Of a stretch of 64,000 bases of DNA, positions 6,128 through 38,818 are shown piece after piece. Position 1 is the first letter of the stretch. The number at the start of each line of letters is the position of its first letter. The notes beneath the pieces are model-generated. The model did not search any database, was not told the origin of the DNA, and saw nothing but the letters and a program-made list of their open reading frames with translations. Where the stretch lies: positions 124,001-188,000 of the forward strand of contig JAGCPN010000001.1 of NCBI GenBank assembly GCA_017965665.1, read 5' to 3'. This stretch comes from Aeriscardovia sp. Its GTDB lineage: Bacteria; Actinomycetota; Actinomycetes; Actinomycetales; Bifidobacteriaceae. A program made the translations under genes and the position numbers.

Positions 6128-6340
6128 AGAAGGACACCCCCTGTTCTGCACAACAGGTCCCCATTGGGCGCGAAGCTCTGAAGGGATTTAGTGTTTTATG
6201 GTGAAACTTAACGGATGGAGCGTGAGCTTTGCATCAAAGCTATACATCTTTCCAAACTAGAATTATACCTATAGCAATATGGCCCATGAGAAGCGAGATG
6301 CCGCAATATGCCGGCCCGGCGCGGCGGAAAAGGTGGAAAA

Positions 6341-6763
6341 ATGATATGCCCTAATTGCCATGCCCGAATTGGAGAAGGGTGCAGCTTCTGCCCAAATTGC
6401 GGATTTCCGCTGAGGCAGGCAGAAGGAAGTGCGGGGATTCAGCAGACGGCGCCTTCTCCCGCTTTTGAAGGCCAGCCCGAGGCAGCCGGACAGGCCACCC
6501 AACGCCCTCCGGAGGGGGCGGGAGCTCCCCCTCAATGCAATTCCGCTTTTGAAAGCGGCGAGCCCGCGCCGGGGGCACCTTTTGCACCCGCTCCTGCTCC
6601 GAAAAACCGCAGAAAATTGAGTGCGATAGAGATTTGGGTGATTGTCATCGGAGTTTGCGCCCTCATAGCCCTCATTATTTCCATCATCAATGCGGCGCAT
6701 ATCGAGACCATCAAAAATGCCCTTATAGAAGTGATTCAGAATCTGCAGGGGATGTCGAATTGA
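6341..6763 (+). CDS. Zinc-ribbon protein with one C-terminal transmembrane helix
   Basis: This 140-residue protein starts with a four-cysteine zinc ribbon (ICPNCH...CPNCGFPL, residues 2-22). A Pro/Ala/Gly/Gln-rich linker follows, then basic NRRK, one helix at about 88-110 (IWVIVIGVCALIALIISII) and a short tail. The zinc ribbon should be cytoplasmic and the tail outside. ATG 6341 follows GGAAAAGGTGG; an upstream in-frame ATG at 6308 lacks support. It is the only zinc-ribbon member of the cluster with neither a Ser-rich ectodomain nor the TDWF domain. Function unknown. Confidence 0.75.
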   Translation: MICPNCHARIGEGCSFCPNCGFPLRQAEGSAGIQQTAPSPAFEGQPEAAGQATQRPPEGAGAPPQCNSAFESGEPAPGAPFAPAPAPKNRRKLSAIEIWVIVIGVCALIALIISIINAAHIETIKNALIEVIQNLQGMSN

Positions 6764-6850
6764 GCCTGTCCGGCCCTGCGGAAAAACATATAGTATAAAT
6801 GCTGATGATTAAAATACCCCTTTTGGGGCGCTAGGCGTTAGGTGGGGAAG

Positions 6851-7543
6851 ATGGCTGAGGCGCAAGAGGATGCAGAGATAGAAGTTCCAACCCCTGTGCA
6901 GGCAGAAAAAGTGTTCAGCACCCAAGAGGGCACAGAGAGGGTGCTCGTCGCCATTTCAAATGCCGGCCACTATATAGATGATCGGCAAAAGGAAATAGCT
7001 TCCAATAAAGCGGAAATCAAAAAATGGGAATTCCATACCGGAGGGGTAGCGAAGATTTGCGCGGTCATCGGAATAATCTGCGCAGTCATATCCGTGCTCC
7101 TGGGGTGCTTTTGCGGAATGTATTGCCTCCTGTTTGCGATCCCGGCGGCGGTATGCGCCGTCTTTACTTTCGTGAGAGGGCGCGAAGCATCCTTGGACGG
7201 CTACTACAACAATGGCAGGCGGGAGGCCATAGCCAAAGATGAGAAAGAAGTGGGGATGGTTAAAGAAAAACTTAACCCCGTCCTCTCGCTCATTCCCGAA
7301 GACTACTCTTCCCTCGACGCCATAGACTACATGATCAAGGCGCTGGAGATGGGCTGGGCGCACGATTTTTCCGAAGCCGCCAAGGAATGGAACGAGGAAT
7401 CGCACCGCCGCAAAGTGGAGAATATGGAAAACCTCAGACTCCAGTCCCAGCTTCGAACCGAAAGCGCCGTGCGGGATCTGCGCGATCTCGAGATGGCGAA
7501 CTTGGCTTTCGACGTTTACCGGGACGTGAGGCGCCGGCGCTAA
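6851..7543 (+). CDS. Two-helix membrane protein (module copy B)
   Basis: Paralogue of the gene at 2317. It has a soluble acidic N-terminus, two transmembrane helices (about 73-95 and 97-115), and a helical C-terminal domain with LIPEDYSS, AIDYMIKALEMG, EESHRRKVE, LQSQLRTE and RDLRDLEMA. ATG 6851 has AGGTGG at proper distance; a GTG nine bases earlier is possible. The zinc-ribbon ectodomain gene follows after 48 bp, repeating the order seen at 2317-3849. The C-terminal half is better conserved than the helices, so it is probably the working part, perhaps binding the zinc ribbon of its partner (inference). Confidence 0.78.
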   Translation: MAEAQEDAEIEVPTPVQAEKVFSTQEGTERVLVAISNAGHYIDDRQKEIASNKAEIKKWEFHTGGVAKICAVIGIICAVISVLLGCFCGMYCLLFAIPAAVCAVFTFVRGREASLDGYYNNGRREAIAKDEKEVGMVKEKLNPVLSLIPEDYSSLDAIDYMIKALEMGWAHDFSEAAKEWNEESHRRKVENMENLRLQSQLRTESAVRDLRDLEMANLAFDVYRDVRRRR

Positions 7544-17875: not shown

Positions 17876-18652
17876 TTATCTAAATCCTCCGCTGGCCCAG
17901 GTTATCAGGAGCGCTATCGCGATCACGCACAGGATTATCAGCGCGCTCCAGGCCGCGAGCTTTTTTTGCGCCTTCCCCCTCTTGTAGCTTTTAAGCATCT
18001 CCTTGGGGGTCTCCTGCCTTACCTGCTCCAGATACGCCTTCGCCGCCTCCACCGACTGGGTGGAGGCCCTGTCCTGGGCCAGGGAGGACTGGGCCATGTC
18101 TATGGCGTGGGTGTTGGCTATGGCTTCGTCTACCCCTTTTGAGAGCAGGGCCACGTTCTTTTCGTACTCTTCTTTTGCCCTCAGGCAGTCCTTGGCGGCC
18201 GCGCCGACCGCGTTTGCAAATGCGTGGGCCTCTTTTTCTTCAGAGTAGGGGACGGAAAGGTCGATCTGGCCTGAAGGGGAATAGAAGTGCAGATCCAGGG
18301 TCCTTGTGTCCTTGGCCTCCCCCTCACCGGAGGGCGGGGTGTAGAGGCCGCCCTTCATTTCAATTTCGCACCCCAGGGCCGGGTCGAGCTTGAGGGAGGC
18401 TCCGGAAAAGTCCAGATGGGTCTTGTACAGGACGGCCCCGTCGAAAGAATCTACGGGGGCGGCAAAGGAGGCTTTCTCCCCCTCCAGCTCCGCTTTAGCG
18501 CTCTCAACCGCTTTTTCGTGGGCCCTCTGAGCCTGCTTTAGCTGCTTTTCGCCCTGCCTCACCCTCTGGTTGTAGGCATTTTGAGCCGCATTGAAGGCCT
18601 TTTCGGCCTCCCTGAGCCTGATGATCTCAGCCGGCTCCCTGTTTCTTGACAA
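17876..18652 (-). CDS. Coiled-coil protein with C-terminal membrane anchor
   Basis: 258 residues, family not recognised. Residues 1-65 form a charged coiled coil. A beta-rich middle part follows (about 66-140: a DGAVLYKTHLDF strand, LDLHFYSPSG and DLSVPYSEE), as in DUF4429/PH-like lipid- or protein-binding domains. A second helical stretch leads to one C-terminal helix (about 233-254, WSALIILCVIAIALLITWA) and a three-residue tail. This is a tail-anchored topology, with nearly the whole protein in the cytoplasm. The start codon is TTG at a strong AGGAGGA site. It is divergent from the FKBP gene, with 83 bp for both promoters. Confidence 0.75.
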   Translation of the reverse strand: MSRNREPAEIIRLREAEKAFNAAQNAYNQRVRQGEKQLKQAQRAHEKAVESAKAELEGEKASFAAPVDSFDGAVLYKTHLDFSGASLKLDPALGCEIEMKGGLYTPPSGEGEAKDTRTLDLHFYSPSGQIDLSVPYSEEKEAHAFANAVGAAAKDCLRAKEEYEKNVALLSKGVDEAIANTHAIDMAQSSLAQDRASTQSVEAAKAYLEQVRQETPKEMLKSYKRGKAQKKLAAWSALIILCVIAIALLITWASGGFR

Positions 18653-32495: not shown

Positions 32496-32918
32496 ATGGC
32501 ACTTTTGCCCGATGTGATAAACGATTTGGCAGACACTCCCTGGGGCGCGATTTTGGGCCGCGCGCAAAGCGGCCCCATGGCCTCCCTCATGCGCACCGAC
32601 GTCTCCGAGACCCCCGACGACTACCGCCTGGAGATAGAGCTTCCCGGCTTCACCAAGAAGGAGATCCACCTCCAGCTCAAGGACGGCTACCTGATAGTGT
32701 CCGCAAAGAAGGGCGAAAAGGAAGAGGAAGGCAAGGCAGGCAGGCAGTACCTGCGCCGCGAGCGCTCCGTGGAAGCGTGCTCCCGCACCTTCTACGTGGG
32801 CAAAGACCTCCTGTCTTCCGACATCAAGGCCCGCCTCGCCGACGGCATCCTCACCCTCACCATCCCCAAGGAGATTGAGACCCCCAAGGGCGAGGAATTT
32901 ATAGAAATTGCCGACTGA
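32496..32918 (+). CDS. Small heat-shock protein (Hsp20 / alpha-crystallin family)
   Basis: 140 residues. An ATP-independent holdase that keeps unfolding proteins soluble. The alpha-crystallin domain (about 34-130) has YRLEIELPGFTKKEIHLQL, RRERSVEACSRTFYVGKDL and the A-x-x-x-n-G-I-L-T-L-T-I-P motif (ADGILTLTIPK), followed by a short C-terminal tail. AAAGGA precedes the ATG. The oxalate module begins directly downstream with its own promoter. Confidence 0.93.
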   Translation: MALLPDVINDLADTPWGAILGRAQSGPMASLMRTDVSETPDDYRLEIELPGFTKKEIHLQLKDGYLIVSAKKGEKEEEGKAGRQYLRRERSVEACSRTFYVGKDLLSSDIKARLADGILTLTIPKEIETPKGEEFIEIAD

Positions 32919-32919
32919 C

Positions 32920-32947
32920 TTGCAAACTTGGCAAGGCCTCCTATAAT
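32920..32947 (+). promoter_or_regulatory. Promoter of oxc
   Basis: TTGCAA (32920-32925), a 16-bp spacer and a perfect TATAAT (32942-32947) form a strong promoter. The transcript would start about 20 bases before the leader hairpin, which places that hairpin inside the oxc 5' UTR rather than only at the end of hsp20. Confidence 0.65.
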
Positions 32948-32965
32948 GGGGGCAAGATTAAATTT

Positions 32966-33035
32966 TTAATCATTGCGGGCGCTTTTCCCAACGCGAGTGC
33001 GTGAGGAAAGGCGCCCGCTTTTCTTAATTAGCTTT
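32966..33035 (+). promoter_or_regulatory. Oxalate-gene leader element, copy 1 (terminator-like hairpin upstream of oxc)
   Basis: A 14-bp stem pairs 32975-32988 with 33005-33018 (GCGGGCGC/GCGCCCGC at the base). An inner ACGC/GCGT stem with a GAGT loop tops it, and TTTTCTTAATTAGCTTTT follows. The first 44 bases are identical to copy 2 before frc. The pair U-G in this copy is U-A in copy 2, so pairing is kept. It sits between promoter and ribosome site (AAGGAG), so it could be an attenuator; it might also merely terminate hsp20 transcription. Confidence 0.6.
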
Positions 33036-33055
33036 TTGTGATGCAAGGAGCAATT

Positions 33056-34777
33056 ATGACTGTAAAAATGAACGGCGCAGATCTCCTGGTCGAAGCGCTC
33101 AAGGCCAACGGCGTCAAGAATGTCTACGGCCTCGTGGGCATTCCGGTAACCGACGTCTCCCGACTCATGGAAATGGAAGGAATCCACTTCTACGCCTTCC
33201 GCAGGGAAGATGCCGCGGTTGAAGCCGCCGCCGCCGCCGGATACCTCACCGGGCGCCCCGGAATCGCTCTCACCGTCTCCGCGCCCGGCTTCCTCAACGG
33301 CCTGGTGGCCCTCAAGGAAGCTACCGAAAACTGCTGGCCCGTCATCATGATCTCGGGCTCTTCCGACCGCGCCCTGGTCGACATGGACAGGGGCGAATAC
33401 GAAGGAATGGACCAGTACAACGCCGCCAAGCCCTTCTGCAAGGCGGCCTTCAGGATTGACAAGCCCGAAGACGTGGGCCTGGGCGTGGCAAGGGCCATCA
33501 GGGCCGCCATCGGCGGCAGGCCCGGAGGGGTATACCTCGACGTCCCCGGCGAAATGCTCGGCCAGATGCTCGATCCCTCCATCGATCCCGCTTCCACCAT
33601 CCACGTCCCCGTAGATCCCGCCCCTGCGCAATTCCCGAGCGACGAGGCGGTTAAGAGGGCCGTAGACATCCTCACTTCCGCAAAGCGCCCCGCGATCCTG
33701 CTCGGAAAGGGCGCGGCCTATGCCAAGGCCGAAGACCAGATACGCGACCTCGTCTCTTCCACCTCCATCCCGTTCCTGCCCATGAGCATGGCCAAGGGGA
33801 TTATCCCCGACGGAGACAAGAACAGCGCCGCCGCCGCAAGGTCCCTGTCTTTGGGAAGCGCGGACGTGATCCTGCTTTTGGGCTGCAGGCTCAACTGGCT
33901 CCTGAGCAACGGGGCCTCCCCCAAGCCCTTCTCCGAGGACGTCAAGTTCATCCAGGTTGACATCGACGGCCAGGAGATAGATTCCAACCGCCACATCGCC
34001 GCCCCGCTCGTGGGCGACATGGTGTCGGTCCTCAGCAAGTTCGTCCCCGCCGTCAAGGCCGCAGGATACAAGGCTCCGCAGGACTGGCTCGACAAGATCG
34101 CCGAAAAGAAGGCCTCCAACGTGGAGAAGATGAGCAAGGCCGAGGAGGCCGGCAAGGGCAAGGAGCCCATGGGCTTCTACGGAGCCATGCTCCCCATCCG
34201 CGACCTCATCGCCGACAACCCCGACACCTACCTGGTCTCCGAGGGGGCCAACACCCTCGACATCGGCAGGGACGTCATCGACATCTTCCAGCCCCGCCAC
34301 CGCCTCGACACCGGCACCTGGGGCGTCATGGGCGTGGGGCTCCCCTATGCCATAGCCACCGCCGTGGAGACCGGAAGGCCCGTGATCGACCTCGCCGGCG
34401 ATTCCGCCTTCGGGTTCGACGGGATGGAGACCGAGACCGTCTGCCGCTACCACCTGCCCGTGATAGTCGTGGTGTGCAACAACGGCGGCATTTACAACGG
34501 CAAGGATCCCGAGATTGACGGAATGGTCTCCCCCACCTATCTGGATCCCAGCGGCCAGTACGATCTGCTCTCCCGCGCCTTCGGCGGAAGGGCGTACTGC
34601 GTGCGCACCTACCAGGAGATGGAGGACGCCCTCAAAGAGGCTTACGCCTCCAAGGAACCCACCGTCATCAACGCCGTCCTGGACCCCAACATGGGCAAAG
34701 AGAGCGGCCACATAGGCCACCTCAACCCCGTCATCTTCCACCAAGACGGGCCCGTCGATTTGCCCAGCGAGAAATAG
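33056..34777 (+). CDS. oxc: Oxalyl-CoA decarboxylase
   Basis: 573 residues. A thiamine-diphosphate enzyme that turns oxalyl-CoA into formyl-CoA and CO2. The N-terminal PYR domain has FRREDAAVEAAAAAGYLTG with the ThDP-activating Glu. VSAPGFLNGLVAL and MISGSSDR are close to the Oxalobacter enzyme. The central domain has LLLGCRLNWLL; the C-terminal PP domain has GDSAFGFDGMETE to CNNGGIYNG, the metal/ThDP motif. ATG 33056 has AAGGAG at six bases. Codons are strongly biased to GC-ending forms, with few AGG or ATA, as expected for high expression. With frc it forms the core oxalate cycle. Confidence 0.96.
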   Translation: MTVKMNGADLLVEALKANGVKNVYGLVGIPVTDVSRLMEMEGIHFYAFRREDAAVEAAAAAGYLTGRPGIALTVSAPGFLNGLVALKEATENCWPVIMISGSSDRALVDMDRGEYEGMDQYNAAKPFCKAAFRIDKPEDVGLGVARAIRAAIGGRPGGVYLDVPGEMLGQMLDPSIDPASTIHVPVDPAPAQFPSDEAVKRAVDILTSAKRPAILLGKGAAYAKAEDQIRDLVSSTSIPFLPMSMAKGIIPDGDKNSAAAARSLSLGSADVILLLGCRLNWLLSNGASPKPFSEDVKFIQVDIDGQEIDSNRHIAAPLVGDMVSVLSKFVPAVKAAGYKAPQDWLDKIAEKKASNVEKMSKAEEAGKGKEPMGFYGAMLPIRDLIADNPDTYLVSEGANTLDIGRDVIDIFQPRHRLDTGTWGVMGVGLPYAIATAVETGRPVIDLAGDSAFGFDGMETETVCRYHLPVIVVVCNNGGIYNGKDPEIDGMVSPTYLDPSGQYDLLSRAFGGRAYCVRTYQEMEDALKEAYASKEPTVINAVLDPNMGKESGHIGHLNPVIFHQDGPVDLPSEK

Positions 34778-34784
34778 TGTTTCG

Positions 34785-34793
34785 TGATACAAT
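34785..34793 (+). promoter_or_regulatory. Extended -10 promoter upstream of frc
   Basis: TGaTACAAT lies 8 bases after the oxc stop codon and about 25 bases before the leader hairpin. It suggests frc has its own start, so that oxc and frc have parallel promoter-hairpin-gene units. Confidence 0.45.
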
Positions 34794-34809
34794 AAGTCAC
34801 GATTAAGCA

Positions 34810-34879
34810 TTAATCATTGCGGGCGCTTTTCCCAACGCGAGTGCGTGAGGAAAAGCGCCCGCATTTTTAATTAGCTTTT
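34810..34879 (+). promoter_or_regulatory. Oxalate-gene leader element, copy 2 (terminator-like hairpin upstream of frc)
   Basis: A perfect 14-bp stem pairs 34819-34832 with 34849-34862, and is topped by the same ACGC/GCGT inner stem-loop. ATTTTTAATTAGCTTTTA follows. About 70 bp are near-identical to copy 1, a similarity that stops before each gene starts. The stem plus T-run can terminate transcription of oxc, of the frc leader, or both. Confidence 0.6.
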
Positions 34880-34903
34880 ACAGCAAGTGAAAGGTGTTTA
34901 TTT

Positions 34904-36232
34904 ATGAATGAATTTGCACCGCTGAAGGGAATTACCGTAGTCGACTGGACCCAGGTTCAGTCCGGCCCGTCCTGCACCCAGATCCTGGCTTGGCTCGGCG
35001 CAGACGTAATCAAGATCGAAAAGCCCGGTTCAGGCGATCCCACCCGCAACCAGCTCCTCGACATCGCCGATTCCTGGGGCCTCTACTTCTTGCAGCTCAA
35101 CGCCAACAAGAAGTCTCTGACCCTGGACGTCAGGACCGAGGAGGGCAAGAAGGTCCTTACCGAGCTCCTCAAGAAGGCCGATATCTTTGTCGAGAACATC
35201 AAGCCCGGCGGAGTGGACAAGCTCGGGTTCGGCTGGGAAGACGTGCACAAGCTCAACCCCAGCCTCATCATGGGCAGCATCAAGGGCTTCAACAAGGGCT
35301 CCCGCTTTGAGAACGTGAAGGCCTACGAGCCCGTGGCCCAGAGCGCTGGAGGCGCCGCCTCCGCCACCGGCTGGAACGAAGGAAAGTTCAACGTTCCCAC
35401 CCAGTCCGCCGCCGCCCTCGGCGACTCCAACTCCGGCATGCATCTCGTCATGGGCCTCCTGGCCGCCCTGGTCCAGCGCGACCACGATCCCAAGCACGAG
35501 GGCTGCTTCGTTTACCAGTCCATGGTCAACGCCACCATCAACCTCTGCCGCATCAAGCTGCGCGACCAGATCATGCTCGACAACCTGGGCGCCCTTCCTC
35601 ACTACGCCGTCTACAATACCGACTTCAAGTGGGGCAAGGCCATCCCCAGGGCCGAGAACACCGAAGGCGGACAGGTCATCGGCTGGTGCTACAAGGCCAA
35701 GGGCTGGGACACGGACCCCAACGACTACGTCTACATCGTCATCCAGGATCCCAAGTCCAGCTGGGAGGCCATGTGCAACGCCATAGGCAAGCCCCAGCTC
35801 ATCGACGACCCCCGCTTCGACACCTGGCAGCACCGCCAGCTGCACAAAGAGGAGCTCTACGCCGAAATCGAGGACTACACCAAGAACTACGACAAGTTCG
35901 AGCTCACCGACCACTTCAGCAAGGCAGGCCTGCCCTGCGGGCCCATCATGGACTGGTACGAGCTGGAGAACGATCCTGACCTCAACTCCGACGGGACCAT
36001 CGTCACCATCGACGAGGGAGGCAACCGCGGCAACTACAAGACCATCGGCCTTCCCTTCACCATGTCCAACTACAAGCCCGACTACAAGCGCGCCCCCGAT
36101 CTTGGCGAAAACAACGTCGAGATCCTCAAGGGGCTGGGCTTTAGCGACAGCGACATCAAGGGCATGGTTGCCAACGGAACGATTTCAGAGGCCCGCGGAC
36201 CGAAGAACGCTGCTCCGGAAGTAATTAAGTAA
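34904..36232 (+). CDS. frc: Formyl-CoA:oxalate CoA-transferase
   Basis: 442 residues, class III CoA-transferase. It moves CoA from formyl-CoA to oxalate, so making oxalyl-CoA for oxc and releasing formate. Seen are VVDWTQVQSGPSCTQILAWLGADVIKIEKPG at the start, NANKKSLTLD, KPGGVDKLGF, the catalytic Asp in LGDSNSGMHLVMGL (Asp169 in Oxalobacter FRC) and the glycine-rich loop EGGQVIGWCYKAKGW. Length and motifs fit true FRC more closely than the generic CaiB branch. It shows the same biased codon use as oxc. Confidence 0.95.
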   Translation: MNEFAPLKGITVVDWTQVQSGPSCTQILAWLGADVIKIEKPGSGDPTRNQLLDIADSWGLYFLQLNANKKSLTLDVRTEEGKKVLTELLKKADIFVENIKPGGVDKLGFGWEDVHKLNPSLIMGSIKGFNKGSRFENVKAYEPVAQSAGGAASATGWNEGKFNVPTQSAAALGDSNSGMHLVMGLLAALVQRDHDPKHEGCFVYQSMVNATINLCRIKLRDQIMLDNLGALPHYAVYNTDFKWGKAIPRAENTEGGQVIGWCYKAKGWDTDPNDYVYIVIQDPKSSWEAMCNAIGKPQLIDDPRFDTWQHRQLHKEELYAEIEDYTKNYDKFELTDHFSKAGLPCGPIMDWYELENDPDLNSDGTIVTIDEGGNRGNYKTIGLPFTMSNYKPDYKRAPDLGENNVEILKGLGFSDSDIKGMVANGTISEARGPKNAAPEVIK

Positions 36233-36323: not shown

Positions 36324-37364
36324 ATGGATATAGGAAAAATTATTGTCGATGACCTGATCCCAATTCTGGTCATCATGGCCCTGGGCTGGTGCCTGGGCTG
36401 GAAATGGAAGGGTCAAAAGAAGCCATTCATAGACGATGCAGGTCGTCAGGCCCTGAACTACTTCGTGTTGGACATAGCCCTTCCGGCCGCATTGTTCGCG
36501 TCCATAGCCAAAGCCTCCAGGAAGCTGTTCGTCCAAGACGGCGTTTTGACCCTCATTTCCTTTATCGGCGTTACGGCGCTCTTCATGCTTTGCTACTACC
36601 TGGACAAGTGGCTGTTCAAGCGCAATAAGGCCGAAGCCGCCATCTGCGCGCTGATTGCAGGATCCCCGACCATCGGGTTCCTGGGATTTGCAGTGCTTGA
36701 CCCGATTTTCGGCGACACTACCAATACCAACCTCGTGATAGGGATCATATCCATCGTAGTAAACGCCATCACGATTCCGATAGGTGTTTCGCTTGTCGAG
36801 TCCTGGCAAAACGAACAGGCCGCCAAGAGCGGCACCCTTAAGGAATTCAACGACAAGGGCAAGAAGATCCACCGCGGGGCCGGATGGTCCATCCTCCGCG
36901 CCTGCCGCAAGCCTGTCGCTGCGGCCCCTATCCTCGCCGTCATTTGGGTCCTTATCGGCATTCCGTGGCCTTCCTGGTTCACCCCGAACTTCGAGCTGAT
37001 AGCCAAGGCTAACTCCGGCGTCGCCGTTCTCGCGGCAGGCGTCGCGCTGGCCGCCACGGGAACTTTCGCCTTCAGCTGGGAAATCATCTGGAACGTGTTC
37101 TACCGCCTGCTCCTCATGCCCGGCATCCTGATCTTCGTGGCCTTCCTGTGCGGAATGTGGAGGAACCCCACCCAGTTCACCCTGCTCGAGATGCTCGCCC
37201 TCGGCACCGGCCTGCCCCCTGCCATGAGCGGCGTCATAATTTCCAGCCAAAACAACATCTACGTCAAGGAAGGCACAAGTACGCTGGCTATTTCCACAGT
37301 CTGTTTCGCAGGTACATGCGTGCTGTGGATTTGGCTGCTGCCACTCATCGCCCACGCCCTGTAG
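36324..37364 (+). CDS. yfdV: Auxin-efflux-carrier (AEC) family transporter, probable oxalate/formate carrier
   Basis: 346 residues with about ten transmembrane helices in two halves, as in the AEC (bile/arsenite/riboflavin transporter) superfamily. Seen are a first helix at DDLIPILVIMALGWCLGW, NYFVLDIALPAALFASIAK, the family break LIAGSPTIGFLGFAVLDPIFG, and the late GTGLPPAMSGVIISSQ. The place between frc and a second CoA-transferase matches E. coli yfdV, so transport of oxalate or formate is likely, but substrate is inferred from context only. ATG 36324 has TTTAGGA; a TTG 18 bases earlier is in frame. Confidence 0.85.
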   Translation: MDIGKIIVDDLIPILVIMALGWCLGWKWKGQKKPFIDDAGRQALNYFVLDIALPAALFASIAKASRKLFVQDGVLTLISFIGVTALFMLCYYLDKWLFKRNKAEAAICALIAGSPTIGFLGFAVLDPIFGDTTNTNLVIGIISIVVNAITIPIGVSLVESWQNEQAAKSGTLKEFNDKGKKIHRGAGWSILRACRKPVAAAPILAVIWVLIGIPWPSWFTPNFELIAKANSGVAVLAAGVALAATGTFAFSWEIIWNVFYRLLLMPGILIFVAFLCGMWRNPTQFTLLEMLALGTGLPPAMSGVIISSQNNIYVKEGTSTLAISTVCFAGTCVLWIWLLPLIAHAL

Positions 37365-37606
37365 AGCGCAGGCGAAGCTTGTGCCGCCGATTTGAGTGGC
37401 AAAACTGTCTTTTCGTTCCGATCTGTTGGAAGGCGGGACTCCTAGCGTCCCGCAGATCCTGAAGAAGGGCCGGCTCCTCAGCCCGGGACGAAGGCCCCCG
37501 GCAAAAGGCCCGGCCTTGGGGGATTTGAAGACGTGCGGGAGCTTCCGGCGTGCAAACGCCGGAGGCGCCCGCTTTTTTAATGGGCAGCTTTTGCGAAAGG
37601 AAGAAA
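37365..37606 (+). promoter_or_regulatory. Structured 5' leader of the second CoA-transferase gene, with intrinsic terminator (leader element, copy 3)
   Basis: Within this 242-bp gap the first clear hairpin is GCGGGAC (37433-37439) with GTCCCGC (37447-37453). A G/C-rich region at 37465-37517 has several mutually exclusive pairings (GGGCC/GGCCC, CCGGG/CCCGG). The last is a 16-pair hairpin, 37535-37551 with 37556-37572, capped by a GCAA tetraloop and followed by six T (37573-37578), a textbook intrinsic terminator. Its basal GCGGG.GC/GC.CCCGC and tail TTTTTTAAT..GCAGCTTTT recall the oxc and frc elements, while the inner stem differs. Fold-then-terminator before an AAAGGAAG site is the layout of a riboswitch or attenuator. 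Confidence 0.55.
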
Positions 37607-38818
37607 ATGGAGGAGATACAAAATCCCGACTATAAGAAGGCGGCGCAGGAGAACCCGCGCCTCGATCCCAACAAGCCCTACCCCCTCGAGGGCGTGCTGG
37701 TAGTGGACCTCACCCGGGTGCTGTCGGGGCCGACATGCACCAGGATGCTGGCAGACGCGGGAGCCAGGGTGATACACGTGGAAAGGCCCCCCAAAGGGGA
37801 CGACACCAGGAGCATGGGGCCGTACGTCTCTGACGGATCTTCAGACTACTTCCGGATCGCCAACGTCGGAAAAGAATCCATAGCGCTGAACTTTGCCGAT
37901 CCCGGCGATCACGCCTTCCTCATGAAGATGATCGCGAAGGCGGATGTGGTGGTTGAAAACTTCCGTCCGGGAGTCATGGCCAAAAACGGCCTGGATCCCG
38001 AAGAGCTCGTCAAGAAATTCCCCCGCCTCATCGTCTGCTCCATTTCAGGGTTCGGCCAGTGGGGGCCCATGGCCAGGGATGCGGCCTACGACACCGTGGT
38101 CCAGGCCTGGAGCGGGCTTATGGATCTTACGGGTCAGCCCGCCGACGAAGGGGGACTGCCTACCCGCGTGGGCACCTCCATTTCCGACATTGTCGCCGGC
38201 ATCCACGGCTACGCGGGGATTGTGACCGCGCTGTACGCCAGGGAGAAGACCGGAAAGGGCACCACAGTCGACATCTCCATGCTCGACACTTCCTTCTCCC
38301 TTATGGCTCAGGGCCTCATGAGCTCTCTGGGGCTCTCGCAGAAGCCCAAGAGGATAGGGAACCGCCACCCCTACATGTATCCTTTCGACACCTTCATGTG
38401 CGCAGACGAAATGGTGGCGATCTGTTGCGGCAACGACAGGCTGTGGGGGCTGTTAAGCTCCTGCCTGGGCCACCCCGAGTGGGCCTCGGATCCTGATATG
38501 GCCACAAACGACCTGAGGGAGAAGAACTGGAAAAAGGTCAAGGGTCTCATGGAAGGGGTGCTCTCCTCAGCTCCGGCAAAGGAATGGCAGGAGAAGATTT
38601 CCAAAGCCGGAGTCCCCTGCGGGCTTTGCCTCAACGTGGACGACACCCGCCGCATGCCCCAGATAATCTCCAGGGGCATGGTAAAAGAAATGCCCGACGG
38701 GCAGCTCGTACTGGGAGATCCCTTCAAGTTCGGGACCTGGAACTCTTACGGGGCCCAAAAGGACGCCCCCGGGTACAACGAGAACGGGGACGCGATTAGG
38801 AAGGAATTCGGAGAATAG
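37607..38818 (+). CDS. yfdE: CaiB/BaiF-family CoA transferase, probable acetyl-CoA:oxalate CoA-transferase
   Basis: 403 residues from ATG 37607 (AAAGGAAG site). Class III fold: VLVVDLTRVLSGPTCTRMLADAGARVIHVERP, ENFRPGVMAKNGLD, ISGFGQWGP, and the catalytic Asp in TSISDIVAGIHGYAGI. It is shorter than frc and differs in the glycine loop, so it is not a second FRC of the same kind. In E. coli the gene in this place, yfdE, makes oxalyl-CoA from acetyl-CoA and oxalate and can prime the cycle; that role is inferred from the same neighbourhood (oxc, frc, AEC carrier). Confidence 0.85.
   Translation: MEEIQNPDYKKAAQENPRLDPNKPYPLEGVLVVDLTRVLSGPTCTRMLADAGARVIHVERPPKGDDTRSMGPYVSDGSSDYFRIANVGKESIALNFADPGDHAFLMKMIAKADVVVENFRPGVMAKNGLDPEELVKKFPRLIVCSISGFGQWGPMARDAAYDTVVQAWSGLMDLTGQPADEGGLPTRVGTSISDIVAGIHGYAGIVTALYAREKTGKGTTVDISMLDTSFSLMAQGLMSSLGLSQKPKRIGNRHPYMYPFDTFMCADEMVAICCGNDRLWGLLSSCLGHPEWASDPDMATNDLREKNWKKVKGLMEGVLSSAPAKEWQEKISKAGVPCGLCLNVDDTRRMPQIISRGMVKEMPDGQLVLGDPFKFGTWNSYGAQKDAPGYNENGDAIRKEFGE

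Follow-up and report, generated by a model that had tools for sequence, protein, structure and literature searches.

Twin terminator-type hairpins in the leaders of the oxalate genes oxc and frc of Aeriscardovia, a candidate shared attenuator

The window analysed here is a stretch of 64,000 nucleotides (nt) from Aeriscardovia sp. (contig JAGCPN010000001.1, positions 124,001 to 188,000), in which oxc and frc, the two core genes of the oxalate pathway, lie one after the other on the plus strand. Each is preceded by a nearly identical leader that carries a small AT-rich stem (P1) and a large hairpin of intrinsic-terminator type (P2), with a further stem (P3) before oxc (Table 1); judged from sequence comparison, the two leaders look like a shared on/off gate on the two genes. 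The genome is a metagenome-assembled genome (MAG) of the Bifidobacteriaceae, with 784,903 bases and an estimated completeness of 99.85%, and it was compared with six congeners, giving seven closely related MAGs of one genus. The named MAGs with the nearest oxc are labelled Aeriscardovia, a genus within Bifidobacteriaceae, and come from the abomasum of yak, goat and water buffalo; the genus consists of tiny-genome bifidobacteria of this acidic ruminant true stomach.

Table 1. Features of the oxc-frc locus (positions in the window) and, in the last row, a leader elsewhere in the genome.
Feature	Position	Strand	Evidence
hsp20, small heat-shock protein gene, upstream neighbour	32496..32918	+	PF00011; syntenic in all congeners whose contig reaches there
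oxc promoter, TTGCAA-16-TATAAT	32920..32947	+	hexamers conserved in 7/7 genomes, spacer varies
oxc leader P1, GATTAA-ATTT-TTAATC, small AT stem / DNA palindrome adjoining the inferred transcription start	32956..32971	+	folding; sequence
oxc leader P2, terminator-type hairpin with invariant apical motif	32975..33018	+	repeat, folding, alignment, survey
oxc leader terminator T-run, TTTTCTT	33019..33025	+	sequence; T-rich in 14/14 copies
oxc leader P3, GCTTTTTGT-GAT-GCAAGGAGC, predicted to sequester the Shine-Dalgarno AAGGAG (33045-33050)	33031..33051	+	folding
oxc, oxalyl-coenzyme A (CoA) decarboxylase	33056..34777	+	TIGR03254, 836 bits vs cut-off 739 (NCBIfam equivalog)
probable frc promoter, extended -10 TGaTACAAT	34785..34793	+	sequence; -10-like hexamer at about the same distance from P1 in relatives
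frc leader P1, GATTAA-GCA-TTAATC	34801..34815	+	folding
frc leader P2, second copy of the terminator-type hairpin	34818..34863	+	repeat, folding, alignment, survey
frc leader terminator T-run, TTTTT	34864..34868	+	sequence
frc, formyl-CoA:oxalate CoA-transferase	34904..36232	+	TIGR03253, 655 bits vs cut-off 504 (NCBIfam equivalog)
YfdV-like transporter gene	36324..37364	+	PF03547; best NCBIfam match YfdV, 281 bits, under the 404 cut-off
third terminator-type hairpin, related not identical, loop variable	37535..37572	+	alignment; survey
YfdE-like CoA:oxalate CoA-transferase gene	37607..38818	+	PF02515; best NCBIfam match PRK11430, 367 bits, under the 522 cut-off
gadC-like leader	G000 contig C8:78082-78488 (locus L167 ~18080-18488)		aligned loci L173, L174, L177, L178, L179, L185

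An earlier note on this DNA had claimed that a segment upstream of oxc is almost repeated upstream of frc, and the repeat is real: positions 32966-33036 and 34810-34879 are 96% identical, with a direct repeat of 57 nt (32966-33022 and 34810-34866, 96%) and a continuation of 16 nt (33021-33036 and 34864-34879, 94%), and there are only these two copies in the whole genome. The fold described there, a 14-bp stem with an inner stem-loop and a T-rich tail, was recovered in each copy. In P2 the GC-rich 14-bp stem is separated by a 2x2 internal loop from an inner stem of 4 bp, which is capped by the loop GAGU; the frc stem reaches 15 bp when the flanking T-A is counted, and the sole stem difference between the copies, U-G in oxc and U-A in frc, keeps the pairing. 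When the 111-nt leaders were compared with dinucleotide shuffles (n = 200), none of the 200 folded as well (z = -5.9 and -7.8). In all 14 copies from the seven genomes P2 folds at -29 to -37 kcal/mol and is followed by a T-rich tail, which is the sequence anatomy of an intrinsic terminator. P1, a 6-bp AT stem, lies just 5' of each hairpin, 3 nt from P2; its palindrome, GATTA[A/G]-TTAATC, occurs genome-wide only at these two leaders, and an extended form of P1 (GCAA/UUGC) is found in oxc only. The T-run is present only on the oxc/frc-sense side of the hairpin, and a bidirectional element was rejected because the reverse strand has none; a mobile repeat or one resembling repetitive extragenic palindromes was rejected as well, since there are just two copies, always at the same two genes.

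Between species, 0-6 of the ~54 core positions differ (89-100% identity), and between the same species the fourfold degenerate sites of oxc and frc are 43-87% identical. The apical CCAACGCGAGTGCGTGAG is invariant in 14/14 copies, as is TTAATCATTGCGGGCGC. All 246 pair cells of P2 hold standard pairs, two pairs have changed on both sides, with U-G/U-A/C-G exchanges, and in the oxc copy of genome G006 the stem is one pair longer, extended on both sides. At the variable positions of the 5' arm (columns 18, 19 and 22 of alignment A2), the oxc copy equals the frc copy in 7/7 genomes, with four forms across the genomes; between G002 and G005, which are close relatives (fourfold identity 0.85-0.87), two 5'-arm columns differ, in both copies alike. 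As read from the alignment, the 5' arms are in concerted evolution, which could be the work of gene conversion or of a binding partner common to both copies. No such agreement extends to the left arm of P1, the 3' arm or the distal leader.

The two hairpins were also placed within a genome-wide survey of 275 intergenic sites with a hairpin and a T-run, in which distances are approximate because genes were called with a purpose-written, simple codon-bias caller. By stability the frc hairpin ranks first and the oxc hairpin third; the hairpin before the yfdE-like gene ranks fourth, and downstream of that at rank two no gene on the same strand occurs within 900 bp. In the order frc, oxc and yfdE, the three hairpins of the locus stand 40, 56 and 170 nt after the preceding stop codon and 40, 37 and 34 nt before the next start codon. 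The yfdE hairpin has a similar outer stem (GCGGG...CCCGC) and a T-run in 7/7 genomes, with a variable, covarying tip; that the oxc/frc tip is invariant where the yfdE tip varies supports the view that the former is more than a terminator loop.

A promoter-like sequence had been claimed before each copy, and this held well for oxc and in part for frc. The arrangement TTGCAAAC...TATAAT...GCAAGATTAA is conserved in 7/7 oxc leaders, with a variable spacer between the hexamers, and the oxc promoter is the only match in the 785-kb genome to the strict sigma-70 pattern TTG[AC][AC][AT]-N15-18-TATAAT; the start inferred from it lies at ~32954, with some 20 nt between it and P2. For frc, this genome has a weaker promoter, with a -10 only and no good -35; a full one is clear only in G001 and G004, and TTGAAA-17-CATAAT is seen in two relatives. 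Thus oxc has the order expected of an attenuator, a terminator between promoter and start codon, and frc has it with the weaker -10 only. Transcription starts downstream of the hairpins, which would speak against a leader role, are not indicated, as there is no credible promoter between hairpin and start codon; a promoter downstream of P2 was rejected, the remaining 25-50 nt containing no conserved -10/-35.

A DNA search of 59 genomes found both copies in all seven genus members, where each precedes oxc or frc. When a covariance model of the 14 copies was run over 189 Bifidobacteriaceae genomes, it gave two strong matches per genome (81-100 bits) in these seven and nothing above 28 bits elsewhere; that is, exactly two copies, at oxc and frc, in 7/7 genus genomes and none in the 182 other family members. 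The earlier note had counted relatives with the genes and without the element against its reading: every congener has the element, but the sister genus, with oxc (76% identity) and frc (about 85-90%), does not have it before either gene at the two loci inspected. It is likewise absent from the Bifidobacterium, Lactobacillaceae and other oxc loci inspected. On this distribution the element is a genus-level innovation and, being absent from the sister genus and the other oxc/frc bacteria checked, no general oxalate-gene regulator. The best covariance-model match outside the genus is a hairpin, GCGGGCGC...GCGCCCGCTTTT, just after oxc in the sister-genus genome G016, and this terminator may be the ancestor of the element, as judged by position and stem sequence only. 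A weak BLAST match in the same genome (L012) was discarded, as it falls within a coding region.

We propose that the two repeats give oxc and frc each a copy of the same 5'-leader attenuator, a reading to which we give a probability of about one half. The transcripts of both genes would start just upstream, at or before P1; RNA polymerase would then make P2 and the U-run, an intrinsic terminator, and much transcription would end after ~70 nt. A factor recognising the invariant segments, TTAATCATTGCGGGCGC and the apical CCAACGCGAGUGCGUGAG, would prevent or bypass termination, so that oxc and frc would be turned on together, and in oxc P3 would additionally hide the Shine-Dalgarno sequence. As to the signal, acid, oxalate or growth state is a guess. 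Of the shared attenuation put forward in the earlier note, the conserved terminator-type hairpin in both leaders and the conserved promoter upstream (oxc, 7/7) stand as observations; that termination is real and conditional, and that its regulator acts in trans, we infer from them.

The suggestion that the RNA itself senses oxalate or a CoA ester found no support: no antiterminator fold was found within ~25 kcal/mol of the hairpin, and the leaders have no aptamer-sized domain. Barring the outer stem of P2 costs 25-35 kcal/mol in all 14 leaders, and none of the 14 has the aptamer and mutually exclusive fold of a riboswitch. Rfam searches, strict and permissive, found no family at threshold in the leaders and only three tRNAs in the window. 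For a leader-peptide attenuator there are only ~20 nt between the inferred start and P2, with no ATG or GTG. With no rival fold and no room for a leader peptide, a self-contained riboswitch or a classical attenuator is unlikely, and the natural inference is a trans-acting factor or simple leaky termination; a response to a protein, also raised earlier, or to another trans factor is possible.

P3 is a 9-bp stem in which the Shine-Dalgarno sequence is paired with a probability of ~1.0 in 7/7 oxc leaders (z = -2.5 and -3.3 against shuffles in two examples), and the folding model makes it a possible second, translational gate of oxc. As a feature common to both leaders P3 was rejected: it is conserved only in oxc, and the Shine-Dalgarno sequence is largely open in most frc copies. 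The 3' segments of the G005 frc and yfdE leaders folded no better than shuffles. In Bifidobacterium gallicum and B. dolichotidis (L101, L108) the oxc Shine-Dalgarno sequence can pair with an upstream CCUCCA/CUCCAU segment, possibly a different translational gate.

Several points weigh against the proposed attenuator. Covariation is modest, 38 of 500 shuffles reaching it; it is thin because the sequences are so similar that most pairs never vary. No CAT_RBD protein was found in the seven genomes (controls positive in 4/14), and with it no BglG/LicT system with its ribonucleic antiterminator; nor was there a second NusG of LoaP/RfaH type, a single match being found in six genomes and none in the draft G004. 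Each of the seven genomes has one gene for an ANTAR response regulator, flanked by a tRNA gene and a polA-like gene, and the canonical loop of this regulator is missing from these leaders. Termination and the transcript ends are themselves read from sequence only, and the conserved 5' segment would suit a DNA operator just as well. Finally, the frc copy also occupies the place expected for a terminator of oxc, and a similar hairpin follows oxc in the sister genus.

The explanation that survives best beside the attenuator, and that the earlier note had already named, is that each hairpin is just an ordinary terminator for the gene before it (hsp20 or oxc), the second copy having arisen by recombination and neither regulating the gene downstream. 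It gains from the conserved T-runs, from the lack of any terminator-like structure other than the frc copy between oxc and frc, and from the place of the sister-genus hairpin as best outside match. However, a promoter conserved in 7/7 genomes stands 28 bp upstream of the oxc copy, and a plain terminator at this place would shut off its own gene; among the typical terminators of the genome many (e.g., C1:37641, C3:77516, C8:110536) stand ~6-20 nt after stop codons, and the ordinary ones have free loops; and plain termination does not require an apical 18 nt invariant in 14 copies, the tip of the yfdE hairpin being variable. Overall this explanation is weakened and we consider it unlikely, although the frc copy would still be able to terminate oxc.

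It is improbable that the conserved segment is mainly a DNA operator, with a transcription factor binding GATTAA...TTAATC and/or the ACGC-GAGT-GCGT palindrome and the hairpin incidental. The restriction of the P1 palindrome to these two sites, where it overlaps the inferred start, and the invariance of TTAATCATTGCGGGCGC would suit an operator, but the stem variants keep RNA pairing in every cell, the length change in G006 oxc falls on both sides, the spacing between invariant blocks shifts by 1 bp between species, and the T-run is conserved. Quite improbable, in our view, is a role in 5' stability or processing, in which a hairpin of nearly 20 bp would protect the mRNA or serve RNase III as a cleavage site and so keep two highly expressed genes in step: its 14 + 4 bp with a conserved internal loop resemble RNase III substrates, it begins ~20 nt from the inferred start and its genes are the pathway core, but the T-run, conserved in 14/14 copies, is required neither for stability nor for cleavage by RNase III and would lower expression. 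We think it very unlikely that promoter, hairpin and T-run make a ~70-nt small RNA from two near-identical loci, acting on other transcripts: the anatomy, the twin copies and the concerted 5' arms fit sibling small RNAs, but nowhere else in the genome is there a match or a complement to the conserved core, and the element always stands immediately before the start codons of oxc and frc.

The gene set at this locus (oxc, frc, YfdV-like, YfdE-like) is that of the Escherichia coli yfdXWUVE oxalate/acid-tolerance operon (PMC3720670), and an acid-related role is plausibly the same here. That operon is activated by EvgA, a DNA-binding response regulator acting at inverted repeats, and no leader hairpin of the P2 kind is described for it (PMC3720670). 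In Lactobacillus acidophilus oxc and frc are induced at low pH and co-regulated by pH (reviewed in PMC9498451); the Lactobacillaceae oxc loci inspected (L056, L059) have no P2-like leader upstream. The link to acid is drawn by analogy, from habitat, gene set and the behaviour of oxc/frc in other species (PMC3720670, PMC9498451).

Other observations were made around the locus. A noncoding block right after the YfdV-like gene (37370-37400, GAAGCTTGTGCC...TTTTGAGTGGYA) is conserved in 7/7 genomes, and the remaining intergenic region is not. Antisense to oxc, a 614-aa open frame on the minus strand (32966-34810) has both ends within the two repeats and is probably a side effect of codon composition. 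The yfdE-like gene of the sister genus lies between oxc and frc and is matched only by frame-broken or short fragments (L054 ~6298-7352; L055 ~6930-7190), as if it were decaying.

Elsewhere in the genome, a gene for a GadC-like glutamate/gamma-aminobutyric acid antiporter, near a glutamate decarboxylase gene, has a long conserved leader of ~370-420 nt from TACATATAAT to the ATG. This leader ends in a terminator-type hairpin in which seven pairs have changed on both sides, the sequence after the hairpin can pair with the Shine-Dalgarno sequence, and Rfam gave no match to it. It is possibly a new cis-regulatory RNA of acid resistance, and suggests that acid-resistance genes of the genus may share such control.

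Bacterial oxalate-gene regulation is poorly understood beyond EvgA in E. coli and low-pH induction in L. acidophilus, and we found no paper on a riboswitch or leader related to oxalate. Should the leaders act as attenuators, a genome of 785 kb would coordinate a two-enzyme pathway by a duplicated RNA gate and not by a one-off operator, and an invariant loop on a stem drifting in step at two loci would point to a specific binding partner, directly searchable. We regard as rather unlikely the boldest form of this proposal, a previously undescribed trans-acting antitermination in which a factor of these bifidobacteria, whose genomes are reduced, recognises the invariant tip of the complete terminator and disarms it, coordinating the oxalate genes in the abomasal acid response; targets and factor would then co-evolve, which would explain the concerted 5' arms.

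Among known systems, ANTAR-target RNAs are defined by two hexaloops with A1 and G4 (PMC8164766), and ANTAR proteins contact mainly the G4 of the hexaloop (PMC8934654). The leaders resemble these dual-hexaloop RNAs of Actinobacteria in having two closely spaced stem-loops, P1 and P2, and the tip of P2, read as CGAGUG, has G4. They differ in that position 1 of this tip is C and not A in 14/14 copies, that P1 has neither G4 nor a constant hexaloop, and that P2 is the terminator itself and not its competitor; the ANTAR protein is a candidate factor, not a fit. Unlike protein-controlled terminator attenuators in general (BglG/LicT, ANTAR/EutV and PyrR types), the leaders have no antiterminator stem overlapping the terminator, and their tip, C-GAGU-G, is without A1. 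What they have in common with these types is a terminator hairpin and U-run between promoter and gene, and one conserved leader motif repeated before functionally linked genes.

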